Assembly: GCA_026014705.1 (NCBI GenBank)
Contig: JAOZHU010000021.1
Location: forward strand, 1-64,000
Direction of reading: 5' to 3'
DNA: 64,000 nt
From: Candidatus Bathyarchaeota archaeon
GTDB lineage: Archaea; Thermoproteota; Bathyarchaeia; Bathyarchaeales; Bathycorpusculaceae
The position numbers and the translations under genes are program-made. Positions 13,963 to 24,494 of the stretch are shown here, piece after piece. Position 1 is the first letter of the stretch. Every line of letters starts with the position of its first letter. The notes under the pieces were generated by a model. That model searched no databases. It saw only the letters and a program-made list of their open reading frames with translations, and was not told the DNA's origin.

Positions 13963-14835
13963 TTAGTTTTCGGTTGCCTCTAACATTTTGTACATGATGT
14001 CATAAGACCGCGTGTACTCGCCGTTAGCTTTCATCAGTTTCGCTTTCAACTGTTCCATCTTGCGCGCTATAGCTGCTGGGTCTTTCTGCTGAATTAATTT
14101 TAGCCATTCGCAGGCTTTCTCTATGAAGCAGCTTTCAAGTTTCTCCAGTTCAGGCAGATTCAACTGGAGGGTAGCGTAGAGGTCTGGGGTCTCTAACGCG
14201 GTGGCTTCAGCCAAAGTGAACAACATGCGGTAAGTTGTACCTGCGACCTTCTTGGTTTCAGCGTAGTCTGCCTGCTCAAGAAGCGCGTCACAAGTGACTA
14301 GCCCCAAGAAGTGCGGCATCCCGAGAACAACCGACATCAACGCATCATGCCTTTCAGGAGACATAACAAAAACGCGTGCTTGCTTCTGCTCCAGCCAGTC
14401 CTTGAAGTCTTCCGCAAACTCCTGCTCAGCAGCATTAGTCGGTGTGAGAACAAACGCTTTATGCTCAACGCCTCGGCTGCCGGGACCAAAGACTGGATGC
14501 GTACCCAGTACCAAGCCACGTTTTATGTGCTTATGCATCACGTCAACAGGGAACTTTTTGATTGAGCAAATGTCCATTACCATTTGCCCGTCACGTATGC
14601 TGGGGGCAATGGTTTTGACAACCTCCTCAAAAGCGCTGATGGATACGCAGATTAGCACTCTGTCGGCGCCTTTAACGGCTTCTGCGAAATCAGCTGTTTC
14701 AACCGCTAATTCGCTTTTCAGTTTTGAGAGCTTGTCCTTGTTTCTGCTGGCAACCACCACAGAATAGCCTTCAGCGAGAAAGAACTTGGCAAACCAAACG
14801 CCCATCTTTCCAGCGCCGAGAATAGCTATTCTCAT
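13963..14835 (-). CDS. tyrA: Prephenate dehydrogenase
   Basis: The enzyme oxidises prephenate to 4-hydroxyphenylpyruvate for tyrosine. MRIAILGAGKMGVWFAKF is the NAD(P)-binding Rossmann start, followed by VVVASRNKDK. GTHPVFGPGSRG carries the substrate-site histidine. I start at the ATG at 14835, which overlaps the aminotransferase stop as ATGA; an ATG five codons earlier is less likely. No fused chorismate mutase is present because that activity is a separate gene in the same operon. It is the last gene of the aromatic operon. Confidence 0.9.
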   Translation of the reverse strand: MRIAILGAGKMGVWFAKFFLAEGYSVVVASRNKDKLSKLKSELAVETADFAEAVKGADRVLICVSISAFEEVVKTIAPSIRDGQMVMDICSIKKFPVDVMHKHIKRGLVLGTHPVFGPGSRGVEHKAFVLTPTNAAEQEFAEDFKDWLEQKQARVFVMSPERHDALMSVVLGMPHFLGLVTCDALLEQADYAETKKVAGTTYRMLFTLAEATALETPDLYATLQLNLPELEKLESCFIEKACEWLKLIQQKDPAAIARKMEQLKAKLMKANGEYTRSYDIMYKMLEATEN

Positions 14836-15914
14836 CTCACTGCCTCGCAAATCCTGTTCAACGCCGTTTCAATGTCGCTTCTGGGCGCAGTCAGCGATAT
14901 TCGGAAGTGTTCGCGGTAGTCCCCGAACGAAGTGCCGGGCGCCACAGCCACGCCCTTGTCAAGCAGGTCCAACGCGAAGCGTTCCGAATCTAAACCACGG
15001 CGTCTCGGGAACACGTAGAACGGCGCGTCAGGTGCTGTGAACTCTAAGCCTGCCTTGGCTAAGATTTTGCATGCCATGTTTGCTCTTTCTTGGTATTCCA
15101 TTTTTATGCCCTTGGTTAACTGCTCATGCATTCCCAACGCAGTTAAAGCTGCGTCTTGGATGAAAACTGGCACATTGGTGATTGTTATTTGGTTCAGCTT
15201 GGCGATTTTGTCAATTAGCTCCTTGCTTGCGACAACGTATCCGATTCGCCAACCCGTCATCGTGAACATCTTTGAGAAGCCTGTAATCATTACGTGGTTG
15301 CCGCTGTACTCCAATATGCTTTTGGTTTTGACGAAGCTTATGGTTCCGTAAACCTCATCTGATAAAATTGGAATTTTCTTCGCGTTAGCTATCTGCACCA
15401 CGCCGTCAAGAACCTTCGGGTCAATAACGTTACTCGTAGGATTATTCGGGTTGTTCAGTATTATCATCCGCGTGTTTCCATCAATCAACCGCTCAAACGC
15501 TTCAAGGTCTATCCGCCACTTGTCATCCAACTCCGTCTTCAACAACCGCGTCTCAGCGCCCAGAGTCTTCGCCGTCAACTCGTAAGCTGTCCAATACGGC
15601 GTAGGCGTAACAACATTGCCACCGCCTCTCAACAGCAGAAACATCGTAGCGAAAACACCCCATTTGGAACCCGGCGTAACCACAACATTATCAGCTGACA
15701 CACCATGCATCGCTGCAAGTTTCTCTCTAAGCTTCTTCTCGCCGTAGGCAGAGGCATACTTGGTTTTGCCCTTCTTCATCGCCTCATAAGCCGCTTCAAC
15801 GATCTCAGGGGGCGTTTCCAAATCAGGGTCGCCTATGTTCAGCTTAATTATCTTTTTGCCTTCATTTTCAAGCTTGATTGCCTTCTCGTTTATTTCATAA
15901 AGCACGTTTAACAA
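14832..15914 (-). CDS. Class I/II aminotransferase, probably aromatic
   Basis: This PLP-dependent aminotransferase has IGDPDLETPPEIVEAA, NNPNNPTSNV and the Schiff-base lysine in GFSKMFTMTGWRIGY. At 360 residues it is slightly short, because the N-terminus begins at a TTG (15914) just after an in-frame stop. Its place between chorismate mutase and prephenate dehydrogenase suggests it transaminates phenylpyruvate and 4-hydroxyphenylpyruvate, or prephenate to arogenate. Specificity is inferred from context only. Confidence 0.88.
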   Translation of the reverse strand: MLNVLYEINEKAIKLENEGKKIIKLNIGDPDLETPPEIVEAAYEAMKKGKTKYASAYGEKKLREKLAAMHGVSADNVVVTPGSKWGVFATMFLLLRGGGNVVTPTPYWTAYELTAKTLGAETRLLKTELDDKWRIDLEAFERLIDGNTRMIILNNPNNPTSNVIDPKVLDGVVQIANAKKIPILSDEVYGTISFVKTKSILEYSGNHVMITGFSKMFTMTGWRIGYVVASKELIDKIAKLNQITITNVPVFIQDAALTALGMHEQLTKGIKMEYQERANMACKILAKAGLEFTAPDAPFYVFPRRRGLDSERFALDLLDKGVAVAPGTSFGDYREHFRISLTAPRSDIETALNRICEAVR

Positions 15915-15933
15915 CTCTCCAGCTTAGTCTTCC

Positions 15934-16212
15934 TCATTCGCCTTTTTCTTCTAATTCCTGAACCGCCATGCACATATTAACTATTTGGCGGTACACAGCC
16001 TCCGCATGAACAGGATTCAAACCCAACGCAGCAGCTTTCACCCGAATGTTCATGTACACGTCGTTCTCCCTCGGAACATCCTTAACAGGCAGCTTCTGCT
16101 CTCTTTTCAGCGCACCAATTAACCTGCAAACTGCAGCCCTTTCACTCAGCAGCTGAACAATCCGCTCGTCTACCTCATCAATCCTCTTCCGCAACTGACT
16201 AATATTCTCCAT
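15934..16212 (-). CDS. Chorismate mutase, AroQ type
   Basis: The 92-residue all-helical enzyme converts chorismate to prephenate. Features are LRKRIDEVDERIVQLLSERA, the GALKREQKLPVKDVPRE stretch with active-site Arg and Lys, and the final helix with Gln. It is a free-standing AroQ rather than a fusion with TyrA or PheA. It begins directly after the chorismate synthase stop. Confidence 0.92.
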   Translation of the reverse strand: MENISQLRKRIDEVDERIVQLLSERAAVCRLIGALKREQKLPVKDVPRENDVYMNIRVKAAALGLNPVHAEAVYRQIVNMCMAVQELEEKGE

Positions 16213-17322
16213 TCACTTCCGCTCCTGCCTCAAAACCTTAGGAATGCAACCTGCACGAATCAAGTGATCCGCAAGCGCCACAGCCACAGCCGCTTCAACC
16301 GCAGGAACAGCCTTAGGAACCACACAAGGATCATGCCTACCCTTCACTTCAACAGTAGCCTCCTCCATCCTAGACAAGTCAACAGTCTGCTGCTTCTTAG
16401 CTAACGATGGCGTAGGCTTCACAGCCACGCGGGCTACAATGGGCATGCCTGAAGAAATGCCGCCTAAAACTCCCCCTGCATTGTTCGTCAACGCCGCAAC
16501 CACTGCATCGCGCACTGCATAAGCGTCATTATTTTCTGAGCCTTTCAACTCCGCAGCCTTAAACCCTGCTCCAAACTCGACACCCTTCACCGCTGGAACC
16601 GTGAACAAAGCTTTAGCAATATCAGCGTCCAACGCGTCAAACAAGGGCTCGCCCACACCCGCGGGCACACCTAACGCGGCAACTTCGATTACGCCGCCCA
16701 AGCTGTCGCCCTCTTTCCGCACGTCTACAATCGCGTTTTCCATTGCTTCAGCGCACGCTTCATCGGGACATCTGACGCTGGTTTCGTAGCGGCGCCTGCG
16801 AATTTCCTCAAAGCTCAGCACTTTACCCATTTTCACTTTGCCAATGGCTACAGTATAAGCTAAAACGTCGATGCCAAATTGGCTCAACAATTTCTTAGCC
16901 ACTGCACCCGCCATTATCAGCGCCACTGTGACTCTGCCTGAAAAACGTCCACCGCCACGGTAATCATTAAAGCCACCGTACTTAACGCGCGCAGCGTAAT
17001 CTGCGTGCCCGGGGCGAGGCAAATCCTTAATAGCCGCGTAGTCGCTGGAGTCCACTTCCTTGTTGGCTACGGTCATGACGATCGGCGCACCCGTTGTGAA
17101 GCCATTGAAAACTCCTGAAAGAATCTCCGCCACATCTTTCTCAATTCTTGCCGACACAATCCTCGGCTGCGGCGGAAGCCGCTTGCTCAACTCCACTTGA
17201 ACGTCTGCTTCGGAAAAAGCCAAGCCCGCTGGGCAACCGTCAACGACGACGCCTACGTGTTTGCCGTGGCTTTCCCCGAAAGAAGTCACTGTGAATTCTT
17301 TACCTATCGAGTTCCCAGCCAC
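16213..17322 (-). CDS. aroC: Chorismate synthase
   Basis: AroC eliminates phosphate from EPSP to give chorismate and needs reduced flavin. Family motifs are TVTSFGESHGKHVGVVVDG at the start, RPGHADYAARVKYG, DYRGGGRFSGRVT, and GRHDPCVVPKAVPAVEA at the end. Length 369 is normal. Its 5' end overlaps the aroA 3' end by 23 bases; the usual MAGNS start confirms the long overlap is real. Confidence 0.96.
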   Translation of the reverse strand: MAGNSIGKEFTVTSFGESHGKHVGVVVDGCPAGLAFSEADVQVELSKRLPPQPRIVSARIEKDVAEILSGVFNGFTTGAPIVMTVANKEVDSSDYAAIKDLPRPGHADYAARVKYGGFNDYRGGGRFSGRVTVALIMAGAVAKKLLSQFGIDVLAYTVAIGKVKMGKVLSFEEIRRRRYETSVRCPDEACAEAMENAIVDVRKEGDSLGGVIEVAALGVPAGVGEPLFDALDADIAKALFTVPAVKGVEFGAGFKAAELKGSENNDAYAVRDAVVAALTNNAGGVLGGISSGMPIVARVAVKPTPSLAKKQQTVDLSRMEEATVEVKGRHDPCVVPKAVPAVEAAVAVALADHLIRAGCIPKVLRQERK

Positions 17323-18604
17323 TCACATCCGCTCCTAACACGCGTAAATCATCGAAGAAACTTGGATAAGACTTTCTCACGCATTCAGCGTCCTGAATCG
17401 TGGTTTCGCCTTCAGCGCCCAAAGCGGCAACCGCGCACGCCATGGCAATACGGTGATCACTATGCGGGTCAACCGTGCAGCCGCGCAATGCGCACGGTCC
17501 CTTCACGGTTAAACTGCTCTCAGTCATCGTTATACCAGCGCCCATCTTTTTCAACTCCATACAAATCGATAGTAACCTATCAGATTCCTTATACCTAAGC
17601 CTTTGGGCATCATGCAATACCGAAATTCCCCGCGCATAGCAAGCAAGCACAGCGCAGACAGGAACAAGGTCAGGTATATCCTTCGCATCAACATCCACTG
17701 CATTAAGCAAGCCGCTGCACTCTGCTACTTCTATGCGGTTACCACGCACATGCACATCCGCGCCCATCCGTTTAAGAATACCCACAATAGCTTTATCGCC
17801 CTGCGCCGTTTGACAATCAAGGTTCCCAACATGCACACGCGACCGCGTTACCGCTGCCGCAGCCAAAAGAAACGCGGCGGAAGAAAAATCGCCGGGCACA
17901 CGGTGGTCACGCGGCTGATACACCTGATTAGACGGGATATGCAAGCAACGGAAATCTTGGGAGATGGAAACTTTCACGCCGTGTTGGGCGAGAACTTCTT
18001 GTGTCATTTGGACATAGCCCTTCGACTCAAGCGGCGTCGTCAACGTGATCCCGGTGTCCGCTTGCGCTTTTGGGCAAGCAAACATCAAGCCTGAAACAAA
18101 CTGGGAGCTCACGTCTCCGCGCATCGCGGTTTTTCCGCCAGCTAATCCGCCGCCCTTAACTTGAACCACCACTTTACCCGCGCGTTTTTGAATGCTAACT
18201 TCAGCGCCTAACTGCCTGAGACTTTCAAGCAACGGCTCAAGCGGTCTCTGCTCCAATGAGCTGCCGAGGAGAAAAACTGAAGGCTCAGCCGCCAGCGCCG
18301 CAACGGGTATCATGAACCGCAAAGTAGCGCCAGACTCCCCGCAGTTTATCGGTTCTTTCGCGCCTGAAAGCGGATTTGCGCCTGTAACTGTCCAGTTGCC
18401 TTCATCAGCGGTTGCTTTTGCGCCTAGGGCTTTGATTGCCCGCAGTGTGGCTTCAGTGTCCTCCGAATGCAGCGGTTCAGTGATTTTTGAAGTGCCAAGC
18501 GAAAGGGCAGCGGCTACGAGCATTCTCTGCGTGTAAGCCTTAGACGGCGGCGCAGCAACTTCGCCCTGCAAATTATCTGTTTTTCTAACTTTGACCTCGG
18601 TCAT
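17300..18604 (-). CDS. aroA: 3-phosphoshikimate 1-carboxyvinyltransferase (EPSP synthase)
   Basis: The enzyme transfers enolpyruvyl from PEP to shikimate-3-phosphate. Visible are PPSKAYTQRMLVAAALS, CGESGATLRFMIP (phosphate site), GDVSSQFVSGLMFACP, and DPHSDHRIAMACAVAALGAEG near the C-terminus. Length 434 is normal. The start codon overlaps the shikimate kinase stop (TAATG). Confidence 0.96.
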   Translation of the reverse strand: MTEVKVRKTDNLQGEVAAPPSKAYTQRMLVAAALSLGTSKITEPLHSEDTEATLRAIKALGAKATADEGNWTVTGANPLSGAKEPINCGESGATLRFMIPVAALAAEPSVFLLGSSLEQRPLEPLLESLRQLGAEVSIQKRAGKVVVQVKGGGLAGGKTAMRGDVSSQFVSGLMFACPKAQADTGITLTTPLESKGYVQMTQEVLAQHGVKVSISQDFRCLHIPSNQVYQPRDHRVPGDFSSAAFLLAAAAVTRSRVHVGNLDCQTAQGDKAIVGILKRMGADVHVRGNRIEVAECSGLLNAVDVDAKDIPDLVPVCAVLACYARGISVLHDAQRLRYKESDRLLSICMELKKMGAGITMTESSLTVKGPCALRGCTVDPHSDHRIAMACAVAALGAEGETTIQDAECVRKSYPSFFDDLRVLGADVSGWELDR

Positions 18605-19479
18605 TACTGAACGACCACCTTGGCTTTTTCGTGATTTACCCGCGTTTGCAGAACTTCGCCTTCATATCGCTGCAGCGCTTGTTTAACGGCGTCAACTTTC
18701 TCGTCTACAGCAACCGCTGTTACAGCAGGACCCTTGCCGCATAAACCAGCAGCAACCGCTCCAGCAGCCAAAGCATCCAACGCTACTGAGGCATCGTAAC
18801 CTAAAGCTGCCGAGTAGACTAAGCCGTTGAGCGACAAGGCAGTCCAGAAATTGCCTTTGCGAGCTTCTTTGTAGGCTACTTTAGCAAACGGTTTAACAAG
18901 CTTGAGCCTGTCAACATCTGAATCGGCCGTGTAAGCTTTTCTGGAGGGTACATGAAACAAAACCGTTAAGCCATCAGGCAAAGTGGAACGTTTAACGAGT
19001 TTACGTCGCATGTTGTCTGTTACTACTGCGCCGCCGAAGTAGGAGGCGCAAGCATCATCGAAAGCGCCTGTTACAGTGACTTTCGCTTCGAAAGCCGCTT
19101 CTATCCCAAGCTTAACAATCGCCAAGTCAGCAAGTGTCTCGCCTAATGCTGCAACTGTGGCTAAAGCCGTAGCGTTTGCTGCTGCGCTGCTGCTTTTTAG
19201 TCCCCGAGCGATGGGGATGTCTGACCATGTGCGCACTGCTGCGCCGAACCGCTTTTCAACGTTAAAGTGCTGGAGAACTTTTGCTGCTGTTTTTTCGATT
19301 AAGACAGGGCTTTCCGCAGGGTCAGAGGTGATTTTGCCCCTGATTACTGCTGGTTCGCTGGTTAGCGTGACTTCAGCCTTTGTTGTTAGGTCTACGCCGA
19401 AGGCGGCGCCTTTGCCCAATGCGATGGCGTTTACGATTGTGGCGGCGCCATGTGCGATGGCTGTGGCTTTCCCTTTCAT
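18604..19479 (-). CDS. Shikimate kinase, archaeal GHMP type
   Basis: The 291-residue kinase belongs to the GHMP superfamily rather than the bacterial AroK fold. The ATP loop is PIARGLKSSSAAANATALA; GAFDDACASYFGG and GLCGKGPAVTAV are the other family blocks. It phosphorylates shikimate. It lies between aroA and aroE, overlapping both, which settles its role. Confidence 0.93.
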   Translation of the reverse strand: MKGKATAIAHGAATIVNAIALGKGAAFGVDLTTKAEVTLTSEPAVIRGKITSDPAESPVLIEKTAAKVLQHFNVEKRFGAAVRTWSDIPIARGLKSSSAAANATALATVAALGETLADLAIVKLGIEAAFEAKVTVTGAFDDACASYFGGAVVTDNMRRKLVKRSTLPDGLTVLFHVPSRKAYTADSDVDRLKLVKPFAKVAYKEARKGNFWTALSLNGLVYSAALGYDASVALDALAAGAVAAGLCGKGPAVTAVAVDEKVDAVKQALQRYEGEVLQTRVNHEKAKVVVQ

Positions 19480-20342
19480 TTGGTTTCGACCTTGCCGAGT
19501 TGGTTTAATGCTGCGGTGCGCATCACTTCAATCGGCGCCACATGCCCTGTCCAAATCTCAAATGAAGCGGCACCTTGGTAAAGCAACATTTCGACGCCGC
19601 TGATTACTCTTGCACCTGCGGCTTTAGCGTCTTTCGCAAGTTTTGTTTCAACAGGGTTGTACACGATGTCCATGACGGTTAAATCTGGCTTTAGCCAGTC
19701 TGGCGCTACTAAGCTTTGGTTGACGTTTGGGTGCATGCCCACCGAAGTTGCGTTAACCAGAATTTCTGCTTCTTGCAGGTTCTTTTGCACAGCGCTAGGC
19801 GAAAGAGCGCCGCCGACGATTTTCTTGCCGAACAGTCGATTCAAGTTATCCGCCAGCACCGCCGCCTTTTCAGCCACCCTGTTCAAAATGCAGAGCGCTT
19901 CAACTTCTTGAGCAAGTGTATAGGCTATGGCTTTTGCTGCGCCACCCGCGCCCAGAAGAAGCACTTTTTTCCCGGCAGGGTTTACGCCGTTTTCGCGTAG
20001 GGCATGCAGTGCTCCGATGCCGTCGGTACTAAAGCCTACAAGTCTGCCGTCCTCGTTTAGTATGGTGTTAACTGAAGCGAGGAATTTGACATTGGATTCT
20101 ACGTCGTCTAAATAGCGGATTACAGCGGTCTTGTGGGGCATAGTTACGTTTAGCCCGCGTATGCCTAAGCCTCGCATGCCCTGCATTGCATTTTGAAGTT
20201 CAACGGCTTTTACTCTGAAAGCTAAGAAAACGAAGTCAAGTTTCAAATGGCTGAAAGCTGCGTTGTGCAGGGCAGGGCTCAAACTGTGCGCTACAGGGTC
20301 GCCGATTACGCCGCATAACTGTGTTTTTCCCGAAATCGTCAT
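19476..20342 (-). CDS. aroE: Shikimate dehydrogenase
   Basis: AroE reduces 3-dehydroshikimate with NADPH. The substrate domain has VIGDPVAHSLSPALHNAAF and NVTMPHKTAVIRYLD (catalytic Lys). The cofactor domain has LLGAGGAAKAIAYTLAQE and the NRVAEK stretch that recognises NADP. LVNATSVGMHPN and SGVEMLLYQGAASFEIWTG complete the family pattern. The length is normal and both ends are coupled to neighbours. Confidence 0.95.
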   Translation of the reverse strand: MTISGKTQLCGVIGDPVAHSLSPALHNAAFSHLKLDFVFLAFRVKAVELQNAMQGMRGLGIRGLNVTMPHKTAVIRYLDDVESNVKFLASVNTILNEDGRLVGFSTDGIGALHALRENGVNPAGKKVLLLGAGGAAKAIAYTLAQEVEALCILNRVAEKAAVLADNLNRLFGKKIVGGALSPSAVQKNLQEAEILVNATSVGMHPNVNQSLVAPDWLKPDLTVMDIVYNPVETKLAKDAKAAGARVISGVEMLLYQGAASFEIWTGHVAPIEVMRTAALNQLGKVETK

Positions 20343-20343
20343 T

Positions 20344-21027
20344 TCACTTTAACCCCAACAGTTCGTATGCCGCTCTCATATCTTGAATAGTCATCTGCCC
20401 TGCCGCTGTTTCGTTTCCGCGTTCAAGCGAAGCGAAAGTGAAGTATCCGCCGAACAGCGGCGACAGAAGCCTTGAGACTTTACCAAGTTCGCCCATGGCG
20501 AAGCACACGATTTTGGCTTTTCTGGAGGCTGCTGACGTGAAATTTAATAAAGCCAAGTTGTCTTCGATGCGCGTTGCGGTTGTGACGATTTTGCTTACGC
20601 TGGCTCCGCTGATGATTGCGCTTTCTAAAACGCTATTAAGTTCTGCAGTGTTCGGCGTTCCGGCGAAATCATGGAAAGAGACAATTGGTTGAGCACCTAG
20701 GCTTTTCAACTCGTTTACGGTTTCGTTCAGCGTTGAATGGTTCAAGTCTACATCAACATATTCAAAGCCGTTTTTTGCTGCGCACAGCAACATCTGCCGT
20801 TGTTCGGTTTCGGTTCCAGCGAATTTGCCGTGGTACCTCTGCAGTTTGCAAGTGGCAATTTTCGGCGTTTCCCCATGAACAGCCACATCCGATAGTTTGC
20901 TGTAATCCTCAAGGCAGTCTAGTCTAATTTCGATTAAGTCTGCGTGTGCGTCTTCTGCTCTTTCGATTGAGCGCAGCGCTTCGAGCACGGTTTTTGGAAG
21001 AATTGACACGCAGATTTTGGGCGTCAA
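20344..21027 (-). CDS. aroD: 3-dehydroquinate dehydratase, type I
   Basis: The enzyme dehydrates 3-dehydroquinate through a Schiff base. LIEIRLDCLEDY holds the substrate glutamate and arginine. SFHDFAGTP has the catalytic His region, SKIVTTATR the Schiff-base lysine, and CFAMGELGKVSRLLSPLFGG the phosphate-like site. 227 residues is the type I length. The start overlaps the end of the synthase gene in an ATGA-type junction. Confidence 0.95.
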   Translation of the reverse strand: MTPKICVSILPKTVLEALRSIERAEDAHADLIEIRLDCLEDYSKLSDVAVHGETPKIATCKLQRYHGKFAGTETEQRQMLLCAAKNGFEYVDVDLNHSTLNETVNELKSLGAQPIVSFHDFAGTPNTAELNSVLESAIISGASVSKIVTTATRIEDNLALLNFTSAASRKAKIVCFAMGELGKVSRLLSPLFGGYFTFASLERGNETAAGQMTIQDMRAAYELLGLK

Positions 21028-22064
21028 TGTTCAATCACTCTTTCGTCTGCCACGGATACGCCGAAGTGCCTGCCGCCCCTCGCTGCCATGTGCACCAAAA
21101 CTTCGTCGCCTGCCTTCAGCTCCGACACTGGTTTTGAGCCTTCAGCTGTTACGAGGCGTATGGTTTCAGCGTTTTGAAGAATCACCTTCACCTTTGAGCC
21201 TTCAGCTTCAGCTTCTACGAGAAGTAAGGGTCTGAACTCGATTTTTGCTCTACCCACGTTTGTGCGGCGTACTTTACCTTCACGGGTGACTATGAGTACG
21301 TCGTCGCCTGCCTTCAGCTCCGACAAGTATCGCGTGTTCTGCAGAGAAGCAAGCGTGTACATGGATGGTGCTCCAGCGTTTACTCTGAACGGGCGAGATT
21401 GCACATACGGGTTTTCGTACACTTCGGCTTCAACGAGAAAGAGCCCTGCGGATTGGCAGCCGACTAGTAGTCCTTCGCCGGTAGTCATCAAGTCGCAAGT
21501 GTCCACGCAAACTCGCGCGCCAATGTCGATCTGTTTTACCGCGGTGACCTTTGCTTGAGTCAATGCGATTCTCGGAGTCTGTTTTTTGACTACAGCCGCG
21601 GTTTTCGTAAGCTCGGCTGCATCCGCAGTTTTCAATAGCACGCCATCGGTTCCAAGTTCCAGCGCCTCCAAAACCAGCTTGGCGTCTTCGGCGTTTTTAA
21701 CTTCAGCGATTAACTTGCTTTTGCCACTGGCTCTTGCAATGAGGTTTTCTAGAGGAATGACCCGCCAGTCTAAACAGTTCAGAATTATGTAGTCAACCCC
21801 GAGTTCAGCAGCCTTTACTGCCGTGTTCTCGTCTGCTTTGCCGCCTATGTTTATTCTCAAAGCCACTTTCTGGTTGCTGCGTTTCAGTTTAGCAACTTTG
21901 CCCTCGTCTAGGCTGTTGAGCACGCTTATAACGCCTTTAGCTAAGCGAGTGTGCGCTTCAGCGCCTTCCAATGTTGCATCGCCAACCTCGGCAGCCAGTT
22001 TCAACAGGCTGTCTCGTTCAGCAGCCGAAGCCTTTGACTCGATTTCAACCCACAGTTCTTTCAT
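21024..22064 (-). CDS. 3-dehydroquinate synthase II (archaeal type)
   Basis: This is the archaeal enzyme that oxidatively deaminates and cyclises 2-amino-3,7-dideoxy-threo-hept-6-ulosonate (ADH) to 3-dehydroquinate, replacing bacterial AroB. Recognisable blocks are the N-terminal KELWVEI start, VDYIILNCLDWRVIPLENLI, CVDTCDLMTTGEGLLVG and RVNAGAPSMYT. The C-terminal beta domain includes two ELKAGDEVL-type repeats. 346 residues is typical. It follows the ADH synthase gene directly. Confidence 0.93.
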   Translation of the reverse strand: MKELWVEIESKASAAERDSLLKLAAEVGDATLEGAEAHTRLAKGVISVLNSLDEGKVAKLKRSNQKVALRINIGGKADENTAVKAAELGVDYIILNCLDWRVIPLENLIARASGKSKLIAEVKNAEDAKLVLEALELGTDGVLLKTADAAELTKTAAVVKKQTPRIALTQAKVTAVKQIDIGARVCVDTCDLMTTGEGLLVGCQSAGLFLVEAEVYENPYVQSRPFRVNAGAPSMYTLASLQNTRYLSELKAGDDVLIVTREGKVRRTNVGRAKIEFRPLLLVEAEAEGSKVKVILQNAETIRLVTAEGSKPVSELKAGDEVLVHMAARGGRHFGVSVADERVIEH

Positions 22065-22852
22065 CGGAGTTCGCCTACGATTTTCTGTGCTTGTGCAACC
22101 GACGCGCCTTGGTGAACGATAGCGGCGAGAGCTTTAACAATCAACGTTGGGTTTTCATGTTGAAACACGTTTCTACCGATAGAGAAACCTGCGCTTCCAG
22201 CCTTAACTGAGTCATTTGCCATCTGCAAGAGTTCCTCTGTTGTGCTGCATTTGGGACCACCAGCGATTACCACAGGGACAGGGCAGCTTTCCACAACGGT
22301 TTTGAAAGTCTCAACGTCGCCAGTGTAGTTTGTTTTGATTATGTCTGCGCCTAACTCTGCGCCTAAGCGGGCTGCGTGTGCGACCACATCAACGGCGTGC
22401 TCGCTCGATATTTTGGGACCGCGTGGGTACATCATAGCCAGCAGAGGCATGCCGTAAACGTCGCATTTTTCGGCAACTTTGCCCAATGTTGCAAGCATTT
22501 TATCCTCGTCCTGAGCCCCTACGTTGACATGCACTGAAACGGCGTCTGCGCCAAGGCGGATAGCCTCCGCCACGGTGCAGACTTGAATTTTGTTGTAAGA
22601 GTTCGGCGTCAGGCTTGATATAGCGGAGAGATGCACGATGAGTCCGGCGTTTCCCGTGTCAACTCGGCGGGCCATGCCTTTGTGCAAAATAAGGGCGTCA
22701 ACTCCTCCTGCTAACAATTGAGTGGTTATTTCCTGCATGTTGCGTATTCCTTTGACGGGTCCTATGGTTACTCCGTGGTCCATTGGCACTATGACTGTGT
22801 GATTGTCGCTTTTGAGTATTCTTTTCAGTCGTCGGTTTTTGCCTTCATTCAT
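22061..22852 (-). CDS. ADH synthase (class I aldolase-like, first step of archaeal DHQ route)
   Basis: The enzyme joins L-aspartate semialdehyde with 6-deoxy-5-ketofructose phosphate to make ADH, the precursor used by 3-dehydroquinate synthase II. The 263-residue TIM barrel shows [15 protein letters not shown] near the start, [10 protein letters not shown] with the Schiff-base lysine, and [15 protein letters not shown] in the phosphate site. It is related to archaeal fructose-bisphosphate aldolase; the operon setting assigns the role. Confidence 0.92.
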
Positions 22853-22901: not shown

Positions 22902-24164
22902 TCATGTTTGAGGGCTCCTCAAAGCGTTTCTTATTAATTGCAACGTGTTTTCTTTTTGGTTCGAGTCTATGAAGAGCAATATGCTTGATGCGATTGTTAG
23001 TATGCCCGAAATGTTTATGCTGTTGACGCGGAGGGTTTCGGAGATTTTCCCAATTATTCCATGCGTCTCTTCTAAGCCAACGCCGCTGATTTTCAAGAAA
23101 GCCAAGTCTTTCTTAACAGCCATAGCCAAAGCCTCAGCGTGGTTCAGCACCGTTTTATGCGCTTCGTTGAAGAGCGCATCAATGTCTTTTTCCTCGGAAA
23201 CGTAAAGTATAGCTGAATTCGTGTTCATGCTCATGCCCAATAGCGTTGCATGAGCCTTTGCCTTGTCCACTATTTCGCTTACGATGAGCGGATTCTCAGA
23301 CAAGCGATTGCCCAACACGGTTATTTCCGCTATCGGCGAAGGATAAGCAATATTCACACCCAACTCCGTTGCTAAACCGCCAGTGATTATCGTGCCCTCC
23401 TTGGTCAAATCGCCGTGCGCATGGTTGATTACGCGAACATTGATGTCGCGCGGCTTGTACTTCAACGCTTTAGCATGGATGAACTTGGCGCCTGAATCAG
23501 CTAAACCCACAAGAGTATTAACGTTAATCTCTGGAAGCCTTCTCGGAGATGCGACAACCTTAGGGTCACCAGTCATTATTCCGTCAGCATCAGTAACTAA
23601 CACGACCTCGTCAGCGTTCAAAGCCTCGGCGAGTATGAACGCTGTGGTGTCGCTTCCGCCGCGCCCCAGAGTCGTGACTTTGCCATCTGAGGTTCTGCCC
23701 ACGAAACCCGCAATTACAGGCACAACTCCCTGTTCAACGAGAGGCAAAACACACTCCGTAATTCGATGTTTACACTCGCTCAAAAGCGGATTCGCGTTCG
23801 AGAACGCCGCATCAGTGATTATCGGCCAATCATCATCCAACGGATCGAAGTAGCGAGACTTCACGCCGTTAGTTCTCAAAGCCGCAGAAAAAATGCGCAC
23901 GCTGGTTCTTTCACCCATCGAGAGTATATCGTCTAATTCACGTTTTTCCAGCTTGCCGTTAGACGTGTTTTTCGCGGTGCTCATGAGAACATCGGTGGTT
24001 TTTCCCATAGCTGAAACCACCACAGCAATTCGCGTGCCCCTTTCAGCCTCGTTAACCACGGCAGTAACAGCCTTTGACAAGCGTTCATGATCAGCTAGGC
24101 TAGATCCACCAAATTTGACCACAATTTTTTTGCAACAATTTGCTTTTACCATTAGCTCAACCAT
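22902..24164 (-). CDS. lysC: Aspartate kinase
   Basis: The enzyme phosphorylates aspartate on the way to aspartate semialdehyde, a substrate of the next enzyme in the operon as well as of lysine and threonine synthesis. KIVVKFGGSSLADHERL and DSGAKFIHAKALKY define the kinase domain. Two ACT domains follow (about residues 280-420) and suggest feedback control. Two starts are possible: ATG 24164, or ATG 24152 preceded by AGGATGG at good spacing. The gene stands directly behind a leader peptide and stem-loop (24171-24297), so it is the gate of the whole aromatic operon. No aspartate-semialdehyde dehydrogenase is in the window. Confidence 0.93.
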   Translation of the reverse strand: MVELMVKANCCKKIVVKFGGSSLADHERLSKAVTAVVNEAERGTRIAVVVSAMGKTTDVLMSTAKNTSNGKLEKRELDDILSMGERTSVRIFSAALRTNGVKSRYFDPLDDDWPIITDAAFSNANPLLSECKHRITECVLPLVEQGVVPVIAGFVGRTSDGKVTTLGRGGSDTTAFILAEALNADEVVLVTDADGIMTGDPKVVASPRRLPEINVNTLVGLADSGAKFIHAKALKYKPRDINVRVINHAHGDLTKEGTIITGGLATELGVNIAYPSPIAEITVLGNRLSENPLIVSEIVDKAKAHATLLGMSMNTNSAILYVSEEKDIDALFNEAHKTVLNHAEALAMAVKKDLAFLKISGVGLEETHGIIGKISETLRVNSINISGILTIASSILLFIDSNQKENTLQLIRNALRSPQT

Positions 24165-24170
24165 CCTGCG

Positions 24171-24209
24171 CCCAGAACTTCAACCACAAAACTTTGTTCA
24201 AGCTCTGGG
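24171..24209 (-). promoter_or_regulatory. Stem-loop between leader peptide and aspartokinase start
   Basis: On the minus strand CCCAGAGCTT (24209-24200) pairs with AAGTTCTGGG (24180-24171) over 10 bp with one G-U pair. It begins 4 bases after the leader-peptide stop and ends 6 bases before the aspartokinase ATG. There is no U-run after it, so it is unlikely to be an intrinsic terminator and more likely controls translation. Confidence 0.6.
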
Positions 24210-24213
24210 CTAA

Positions 24214-24297
24214 CTAAAAATAATAGTAATAGAACCAATAGCCGAAGCTACCGAACTGCGCTGAAACACTTTCTTTCTCTGTGTCTGGATTGGTCAT
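24214..24297 (-). CDS. Aromatic-rich leader peptide of the shikimate operon
   Basis: The 27-codon ORF starts at an ATG with GAGG six bases upstream and ends in TAG. The last 13 residues are FGSFGYWFYYYYF: five Tyr, four Phe and one Trp. It lies immediately upstream of aspartokinase, the first gene of the operon that makes Phe, Tyr and Trp precursors, and a stem-loop starts 4 bases after its stop. This is the layout of bacterial attenuator peptides such as pheL and trpL, where the ribosome senses charged tRNA. A TATA-like box at 24332-24342 would start the transcript just before the ATG. A longer 60-codon reading of the same frame would begin upstream of that promoter and is less likely. That the ORF exists is certain; its role is inferred. 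Confidence 0.7.
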   Translation of the reverse strand: MTNPDTEKESVSAQFGSFGYWFYYYYF

Positions 24298-24331
24298 TGT
24301 AGCCTCGAACCGACCACAAGGGTGTTGAATC

Positions 24332-24342
24332 GAAAATAAAAG
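24332..24342 (-). promoter_or_regulatory. TATA-like box of the aromatic operon
   Basis: Minus-strand CTTTTATTTTC lies about 40 bases before the leader ATG, placing the transcript start near 24311. A perfect hairpin CGGCGG-TTA-CCGCCG (24369-24383) lies upstream of it and might end the transcript of the preceding amt gene or bind a regulator. Confidence 0.45.
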
Positions 24343-24494
24343 CATTTCGGAAATCCAAATACCAAAAGCGGCGGTTACCGCCGTCTTCTGCACCATCTCA
24401 ACATCGGAACCAGATTGCCGAGTGCATTTTAAGCCACAAAAAAAAAGAAAAAGATGAGGAACTGTGTGCTGATTTTGGCTCTCTTGTGGTTGTA

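Follow-up and report, generated by a model that had tools for sequence, protein, structure and literature searches.

Control of amino-acid operons by translation of a leader peptide is a textbook bacterial mechanism. In the trp and phe leaders of E. coli, the stem that follows the leader stop codon is the ON structure, and the pheL peptide ends FFFTFP-stop. The locus described here resembles pheL and trpL in that a short ORF rich in codons for the end products precedes a biosynthetic operon, in that the aromatic codons end just before the stop codon while segment 2 (the 5' arm of a stem) starts right after it, and in that mutually exclusive states would be set by the position of the ribosome. 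The locus lies in a 64,000-nucleotide stretch of a Bathyarchaeia genome (the window), where the leader ORF and the stem precede the gene for aspartokinase (AK), the first of eleven genes leading through shikimate to Phe and Tyr.

According to a paper of 2021, neither transcription attenuation nor antitermination is known from archaea (PMC8448881). We found no precedent for an archaeal leader-peptide attenuator in the open-access literature, and an earlier report elsewhere is possible. From the nucleotide sequence and its comparison with relatives, we propose, with a probability of about 0.7, that the region is a ribosome-mediated attenuator for charged tRNA-Phe and tRNA-Tyr, and that its output is probably translational.

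Results

The leader ORF and the aspartokinase operon

The features of the locus, all on the minus strand, are listed below with the evidence for each.

13963-22852, minus strand: ten downstream genes, ending with prephenate dehydrogenase at 13963 (ORFs; Pfam for nine of the ten). Genes 2-6 of the operon are a DeoC/LacD-family aldolase (in the ADTH synthase position), DHQ synthase II, AroD, AroE and a GHMP-type shikimate kinase; genes 7-11 are EPSP synthase, chorismate synthase, chorismate mutase, an aminotransferase and prephenate dehydrogenase
22902-24164, minus strand: AK, gene 1 of the operon (ORF, PF00696)
24161-24166, minus strand: candidate segment 4, the AK Shine-Dalgarno-like GGATGG (position relative to the ortholog-supported start at 24152)
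24170-24184, minus strand: segment 3, 3' arm of the stem, GTTGAAGTTCTGGGC (window fold and ortholog stems)
24196-24210, minus strand: segment 2, 5' arm of the stem, GCCCAGAGCTTGAAC (window fold and ortholog stems)
24214-24297, minus strand: leader ORF, 27 codons, full peptide MTNPDTEKESVSAQFGSFGYWFYYYYF-stop (sequence and counterparts in 78 analysed orthologs)
24217-24255, minus strand: aromatic block, the last 13 codons (F, F, Y, W, F, Y, Y, Y, Y, F) (sequence and conserved Phe/Tyr enrichment)
24242-24251, minus strand: 3' arm of pairing H1, GTAGCTTCGG, within the leader ORF (pairs with 24299-24308)
24299-24308, minus strand: 5' arm of pairing H1, TCGAGGCTAC, in the short 5' UTR of the leader, containing GAGG (pairs with 24242-24251)
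24333-24339, minus strand: TATA-like promoter element (A+T peak 42 to 36 nt before the leader ATG)

The initial annotation had placed AK at the head of eleven genes, and this order was confirmed by the ORFs and, for the ten proteins submitted, by Pfam; the ten included AK, and the aminotransferase was not among them. Comparison with the starts of orthologs suggests that AK likely begins at the second in-frame ATG, at 24152, and not at 24164.

The leader ORF runs from an ATG at 24297 to a TAG at 24216-24214, and its peptide ends FGSFGYWFYYYYF-stop. Both the 27 codons and the 10 aromatic residues among the last 13 were read correctly at the outset, as the minus-strand sequence confirmed. The first Phe codon lies 13 codons and the first Tyr codon 8 codons before the leader stop. 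When aromatic residues were counted over the final 15 codons of every ORF at a matching distance, none of 5000 dinucleotide shuffles of the window's upstream region gave the 10 of the actual sequence, the maximum being 8.

Two more in-frame ATGs, at 24342 and 24396, lie 5' of the leader start. Since both are upstream of the TATA-like box, they fall outside the predicted transcript, which supports the 27-codon start; a longer ORF of 60 amino acids from the ATG at 24396 was ruled out by the promoter position. The A+T peak at -42 to -36 was seen across 72 aligned orthologs, and promoter element and transcript start are usually about 25 nt apart in archaea. From this peak and this spacing, a transcript start 13-16 nt upstream of the leader ATG is predicted, near 24311, the same position that the initial annotation had given. 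The GAGG of the 5' UTR, at first taken for the leader's own ribosome site, is not conserved (most close relatives have GAAG there), and it was therefore dropped as a Shine-Dalgarno (SD) sequence of the leader.

The H1 pairing in the window beats that in shuffles (p<0.01). In family f1 the 5' UTR pairs in this way with the Ser-Phe codons of the leader, and the pairing is kept despite sequence change, while H1 was not seen outside f1 in the ortholog leaders compared. Kept within f1 and missing elsewhere, H1 appears to be an accessory feature, and any role of it in control is one that we infer. A universal 1:2 competitor of the stem after the stop codon was considered and rejected: only f1 has a clear H1, and a 5' UTR that pairs directly with segment 2 is found just in scattered members of f6 and f9.

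Conservation of the leader in Bathyarchaeia

AK orthologs were gathered from 61 and then from 257 genomes of the class Bathyarchaeia, and their upstream regions were compared; a search of contigs yielded three useful close relatives among the matches listed, which were mostly distant kinases. A leader ORF was found before 78 analysed AK orthologs in eight families (f1, f5, f6, f9, f12, f13, f14 and f19), so that the search for aromatic ORFs before related AK operons, which had been suggested as a check, was strongly positive. These 78 are the orthologs with a clear AK start, and four more with a leader were left out because they had no clear start or were incomplete.

In the 74 distinct leader peptides, aromatic residues make up 59% of the last 13, compared with 4.7% in the N-terminal part (kinship between the sequences being ignored). 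The 961 residues of the leader ends comprise 265 F, 292 Y and only 14 W, which argues against the earlier inclusion of Trp in the signal. While most leaders have a fairly constant length of 23-29 codons, the peptides differ widely, as in MTNNTRKESWSQQFSSFGYYFYYYFN, MNSHSTTTLTNSSMFYSFSYFFYN, MNNPIATINTQFGFYFSGYWYIFSY and MVNKGKEKLLSSTAYFKELNTFNPYYYYYYYCFF. Their N-terminal halves do not align, F and Y swap at most positions of the block, and both T and C are used at third codon positions. The interchange of F and Y at the same positions indicates that a class of codons is kept and not one peptide. Shuffled upstream regions contained at least 7 aromatic residues in 0.27% of trials, and the ten upstream regions of AK paralogues that served as a negative control had no leader and 0-3 aromatic residues.

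Outside the class, the AK gene of Candidatus Borrarchaeum (L037) is preceded by a short ORF ending FSFYFRF-stop, and that of a member of Jordarchaeia (L039) by the short ORF MWMDYFFMHN-stop. These aromatic-ended ORFs are perhaps leaders of the same kind.

The stem after the leader stop codon

In the window, 24210-24196 is joined to 24184-24170, the outermost pair being 24210 with 24170. The predicted stem has 11 bp, including one G-U, followed by one mismatch and 3 bp, and closes on a loop of about 11 nt. It begins 3 nt past the leader stop codon and ends 5 nt short of the ATG at 24164; the stem-loop annotated between the leader stop and AK is thus present, and the distances of 4 and 6 first given for it are each off by one. 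No U-run follows the stem, the only T4 being in the loop.

The distance from leader stop to AK start is 44-74 nt in the 78 orthologs. For the 73 distinct segments between leader stop and SD, the mean folding z was -2.87 (kinship ignored), and the first stem pair is the first nucleotide after the leader stop in 63 of the 73 and lies within 1-5 nt of it in 72. Quite different stems stand at the same place, such as GCCCAG/CTGGGC, GAGAAACCG/CGGTTTCTC, GAAAGAACC/GGTTCTTTC and GCTTCGAAACC/GGTTTCGAAGC. Swapping arms among 22 divergent stems lowered the pairing from 85% to 50%, a test that favours pairing because the arms were taken from predicted folds, so that the independent weight lies in the z-scores; kinship is ignored in all these figures on the stem. 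As far as comparison of predicted folds can establish it, preservation of the stem by compensation is established: pairing persists as the sequence changes. Taken together, the ortholog leaders and the stem support the central idea of the initial annotation, and the presence of a putative amino-acid-sensing leader ORF before an archaeal aromatic operon can be regarded as established at the level of sequence.

Ribosome position and predicted output

We propose that transcription would begin just upstream of the leader ORF and that the leader would be translated at once. If Phe-tRNA or Tyr-tRNA is short, ribosomes would stall before they reach the stop codon, within the aromatic block, and leave segment 2 free; the 2:3 stem would then form, and the AK ribosome site would be exposed (ON). 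If both tRNAs are plentiful, the ribosome would go on to the stop codon, which the stem adjoins, and would thereby cover segment 2, whereupon segment 3 would be released and may pair with the AK SD (OFF).

The leading edge of the ribosome was placed about 13 nt downstream of the first base of the A-site codon. With this geometry, a stalled ribosome touches the stem only if it stands on the last or the second-last codon, and the predicted folds retain the stem when the ribosome is on the first Phe or Tyr codon and lose it when the ribosome is at the last codon or the stop. Since stalls at the first Phe or Tyr codon spare the stem and a ribosome at the stop melts it, the arrangement matches the trp/phe layout with a sign of the feedback type, and the 2:3 stem is likely the ON state. 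In most orthologs the stem also forms in free RNA, and a transcript that is not translated would therefore look ON.

For the OFF state, folding of the window predicted that segment 4 pairs with segment 3 once segment 2 is covered, and the pairing of segment 3 with the AK SD is strong in f12 and in parts of f6. Local folds gave an exposure of the AK SD of 0.56 with the stem and 0.40 with segment 2 covered, with the same direction in 56 of 74 cases; shuffled 3' arms, however, hid the SD about as well as the real arms (p 0.26). The 3:4 pairing was 3.59 compared with 3.15 in shuffles (p 0.019), and the p-values for both exposure and pairing are optimistic because the sequences are related. Longer folds showed no consistent direction, SD exposure being up in 28 and down in 35. 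It appears that the translational output step is unproven and weakly supported by these folds, and that translational control is plausible at the window locus, where no U-run is found.

The initial annotation had assigned the stem the opposite role, in which the 2:3 stem blocks AK translation and a ribosome stalled on the aromatic codons covers the 5' arm and opens the AK start. For this sign, ribosomes would have to stall on the last or the second-last codon, and it is true that aromatic codons reach the second-last codon in 78% of leaders, where a stall would reach the first stem bases, and that the stem ends within a few nucleotides of the AK ribosome site. The codon adjoining the stop is aromatic in just 27%, however, and most stalls on aromatic codons, including those at the first Phe or Tyr codon, would leave the stem intact, which makes the geometry doubtful. 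In addition, the stem of the orthologs lies 2-10 nt upstream of the AK SD without covering it, and the SD is exposed in local folds with the stem present, so we consider this arrangement rather unlikely. The same Phe/Tyr sensor could instead have a transcriptional output; the stem or a U-rich tract near it would then act on RNA polymerase, and whether transcription terminates or reads through would depend on the ribosome at the stop codon. Against it, a terminating 2:3 stem would have the wrong sign, because starved ribosomes let the stem form, and a T-run is missing after the stem of the window, whose loop holds just T4, while several f1 members lack one altogether. What speaks for it is a stretch of 4-5 T straight after the stem in some members of f6, f9 and f12 and a T-run in the loop in many members of f1, and we judge it unlikely on balance.

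An ORF that is conserved at a fairly constant length could also encode a small protein with a function, or a peptide that causes arrest by its own sequence. The identity of the residues is not kept, however, only the stem and the aromatic content beside the stop, and such a function is very improbable. We attach almost no weight to chance. TTT and TAT codons are indeed common in AT-rich DNA, and an AT-rich intergenic stretch may read as aromatic codons, but the shuffles of the window never reached its count, 78 orthologs conserve the leader, the paralogues have none, and the third positions vary between T and C. The reading that we prefer is thus the Phe/Tyr attenuator in which the 2:3 stem is ON.

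Frameshift-type sites before aspartokinase and trpE

Homologous operons without the leader had been named in advance as evidence against an attenuator. AK operons without an aromatic block were found in families f10, f15, f18 and f21, though they carry another device made of Phe and Tyr codons. The mini-ORFs of f10 and f15 (MGGHLY; MGDHLF-GDGVY) run into CTT.TAC, or into NTT.TTC and NTT.TAC/TAT, with an SD-like GGTGAT or GGTGGT ahead of these sites. At 17 loci of f15 and f10 (L174, L177, L178, L181, L182 and L190-L201), a +1 slip at NTT-T would enter the AK frame, with the caveat that the SD-like stretch itself makes an in-frame GTG in the AK frame. In f18 and f21 (L202-L209), shift-type sites for Phe and Tyr lie about 115-160 nt upstream of AK. 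The zero frame stops early, about 75-117 nt upstream of the AK start, while the +1 frame stays open for about 110 nt, and at all eight loci its end falls from -14 to +17 nt relative to the aligned start of AK, a layout that suggests frameshift-dependent translational coupling.

The trpE genes of these archaea lie outside the 64-kb window and are described here as context and a further lead. A mini-ORF such as ATG-GGG-TAT-CGC-CTT.TGG precedes trpE, which is in the +1 frame. The cassette, defined as an SD-like stretch 3 nt before NUU-U with the main ORF in +1, was present at 63 of the 70 Bathyarchaeia trpE loci sampled (L239-L308), compared with a mean of 0.13 after shuffling. No ATG, GTG or TTG stands between the shift site and the protein body at 36 trpE loci, and at 33 a stop in the trpE frame falls within seven codons before the shift site. 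The genome from which the window comes has such a trpE itself (L259, G000:C42), with the six-codon mini-ORF MGYRL/W and trpE in +1. Outside Bathyarchaeia, 16 of 24 sampled Thermoproteota trpE loci have the cassette (L322-L341, L309, L310, L318 and L321); among these 24, the NTT.TGG mini-ORF was not found in trpE of families f32 and f42 and of one f62 genome. A second trpE copy in one genome (G187, L293) reads ATG-GGT-GAT-CCA-CTT.TAG, with a stop codon where its relatives have TGG. Non-AUG initiation at a conserved Ile codon of trpE was also considered and is less likely, as the ATG and the SD are kept and the A-site codon matches the pathway.

At these sites, starved ribosomes would slip at NUU-U, either into the frame of the enzyme or into an overlapping frame whose end meets the start of AK. 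We therefore hold it quite likely that Thermoproteota have two ribosome sensors, namely the Phe/Tyr leader attenuator and a hungry-codon +1 frameshift that would respond to Trp before trpE and to Tyr or Phe before AK of the sister families.

Discussion

The archaea studied here probably sense amino-acid shortage by the translating ribosome, as bacteria do, and the leader family suggests a possible way for uncultured archaea to regulate aromatic amino acids without a dedicated repressor. A 2016 review of recoding knew of no hungry-codon frameshifting that yields starvation-specific trans-frame proteins (PMC5009743), a gap that the trpE device would fill. We found no report of a hungry-codon frameshift sensor in trpE or in archaea in the open-access literature; if the proposal is true, the frameshift device would be the first case in nature of an amino-acid sensor that relies on hungry-codon frameshifting. 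As the device extends to further classes of the phylum, cultivable organisms may offer a way to test it.

Unlike pheL and trpL, the proposed attenuator of the window is archaeal and has no intrinsic terminator with a U-run before AK; the 3:4 terminator with a U-run that marks the transcriptional form was not found in the window, and a U-run occurs in some other lineages only. The first gene is also different, being AK, the aspartate entry to the archaeal dehydroquinate route, and the window leader would sense Phe and Tyr together. In Rfam, the window had no match with an E of 1 or less, six related loci had none at gathering score, and no covariance match to the T-box riboswitch core was found in the window.

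The locus also shares with the ermC-type translational attenuators a leader ORF, a stem adjoining the ribosome site of the next gene and an output that is probably translational. In ermC, however, the ribosome is stalled by the drug together with the nascent peptide, whereas here the codon content is conserved and the peptide sequence is not; with F and Y interchanging and the N-terminal halves variable, no conserved nascent-peptide arrest sequence was found in the leaders. Sequestration of the SD is likewise not convincing here, unlike in ermC, as shuffled 3' arms behave similarly.

The trpE and AK cassette is closest to prfB, the bacterial gene of release factor 2 (RF2), with which it has in common a short zero-frame ORF, a purine stretch that resembles an SD and stands 3 nt ahead of the shift codon, an NUU with a U behind it, the main protein in +1 and a slow A-site codon as the presumed trigger. 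Unlike in prfB, the A-site codon is not UGA but a sense codon for an amino acid of the pathway (UGG in trpE; UAC, UAU or UUC in AK). As judged from its layout, the cassette would work like an RF2 site and yet is not a member of the RF2 type. The putative frameshift sensor of trpE and AK would be a new kind, while the element of the window would be a variant of known leader attenuation.
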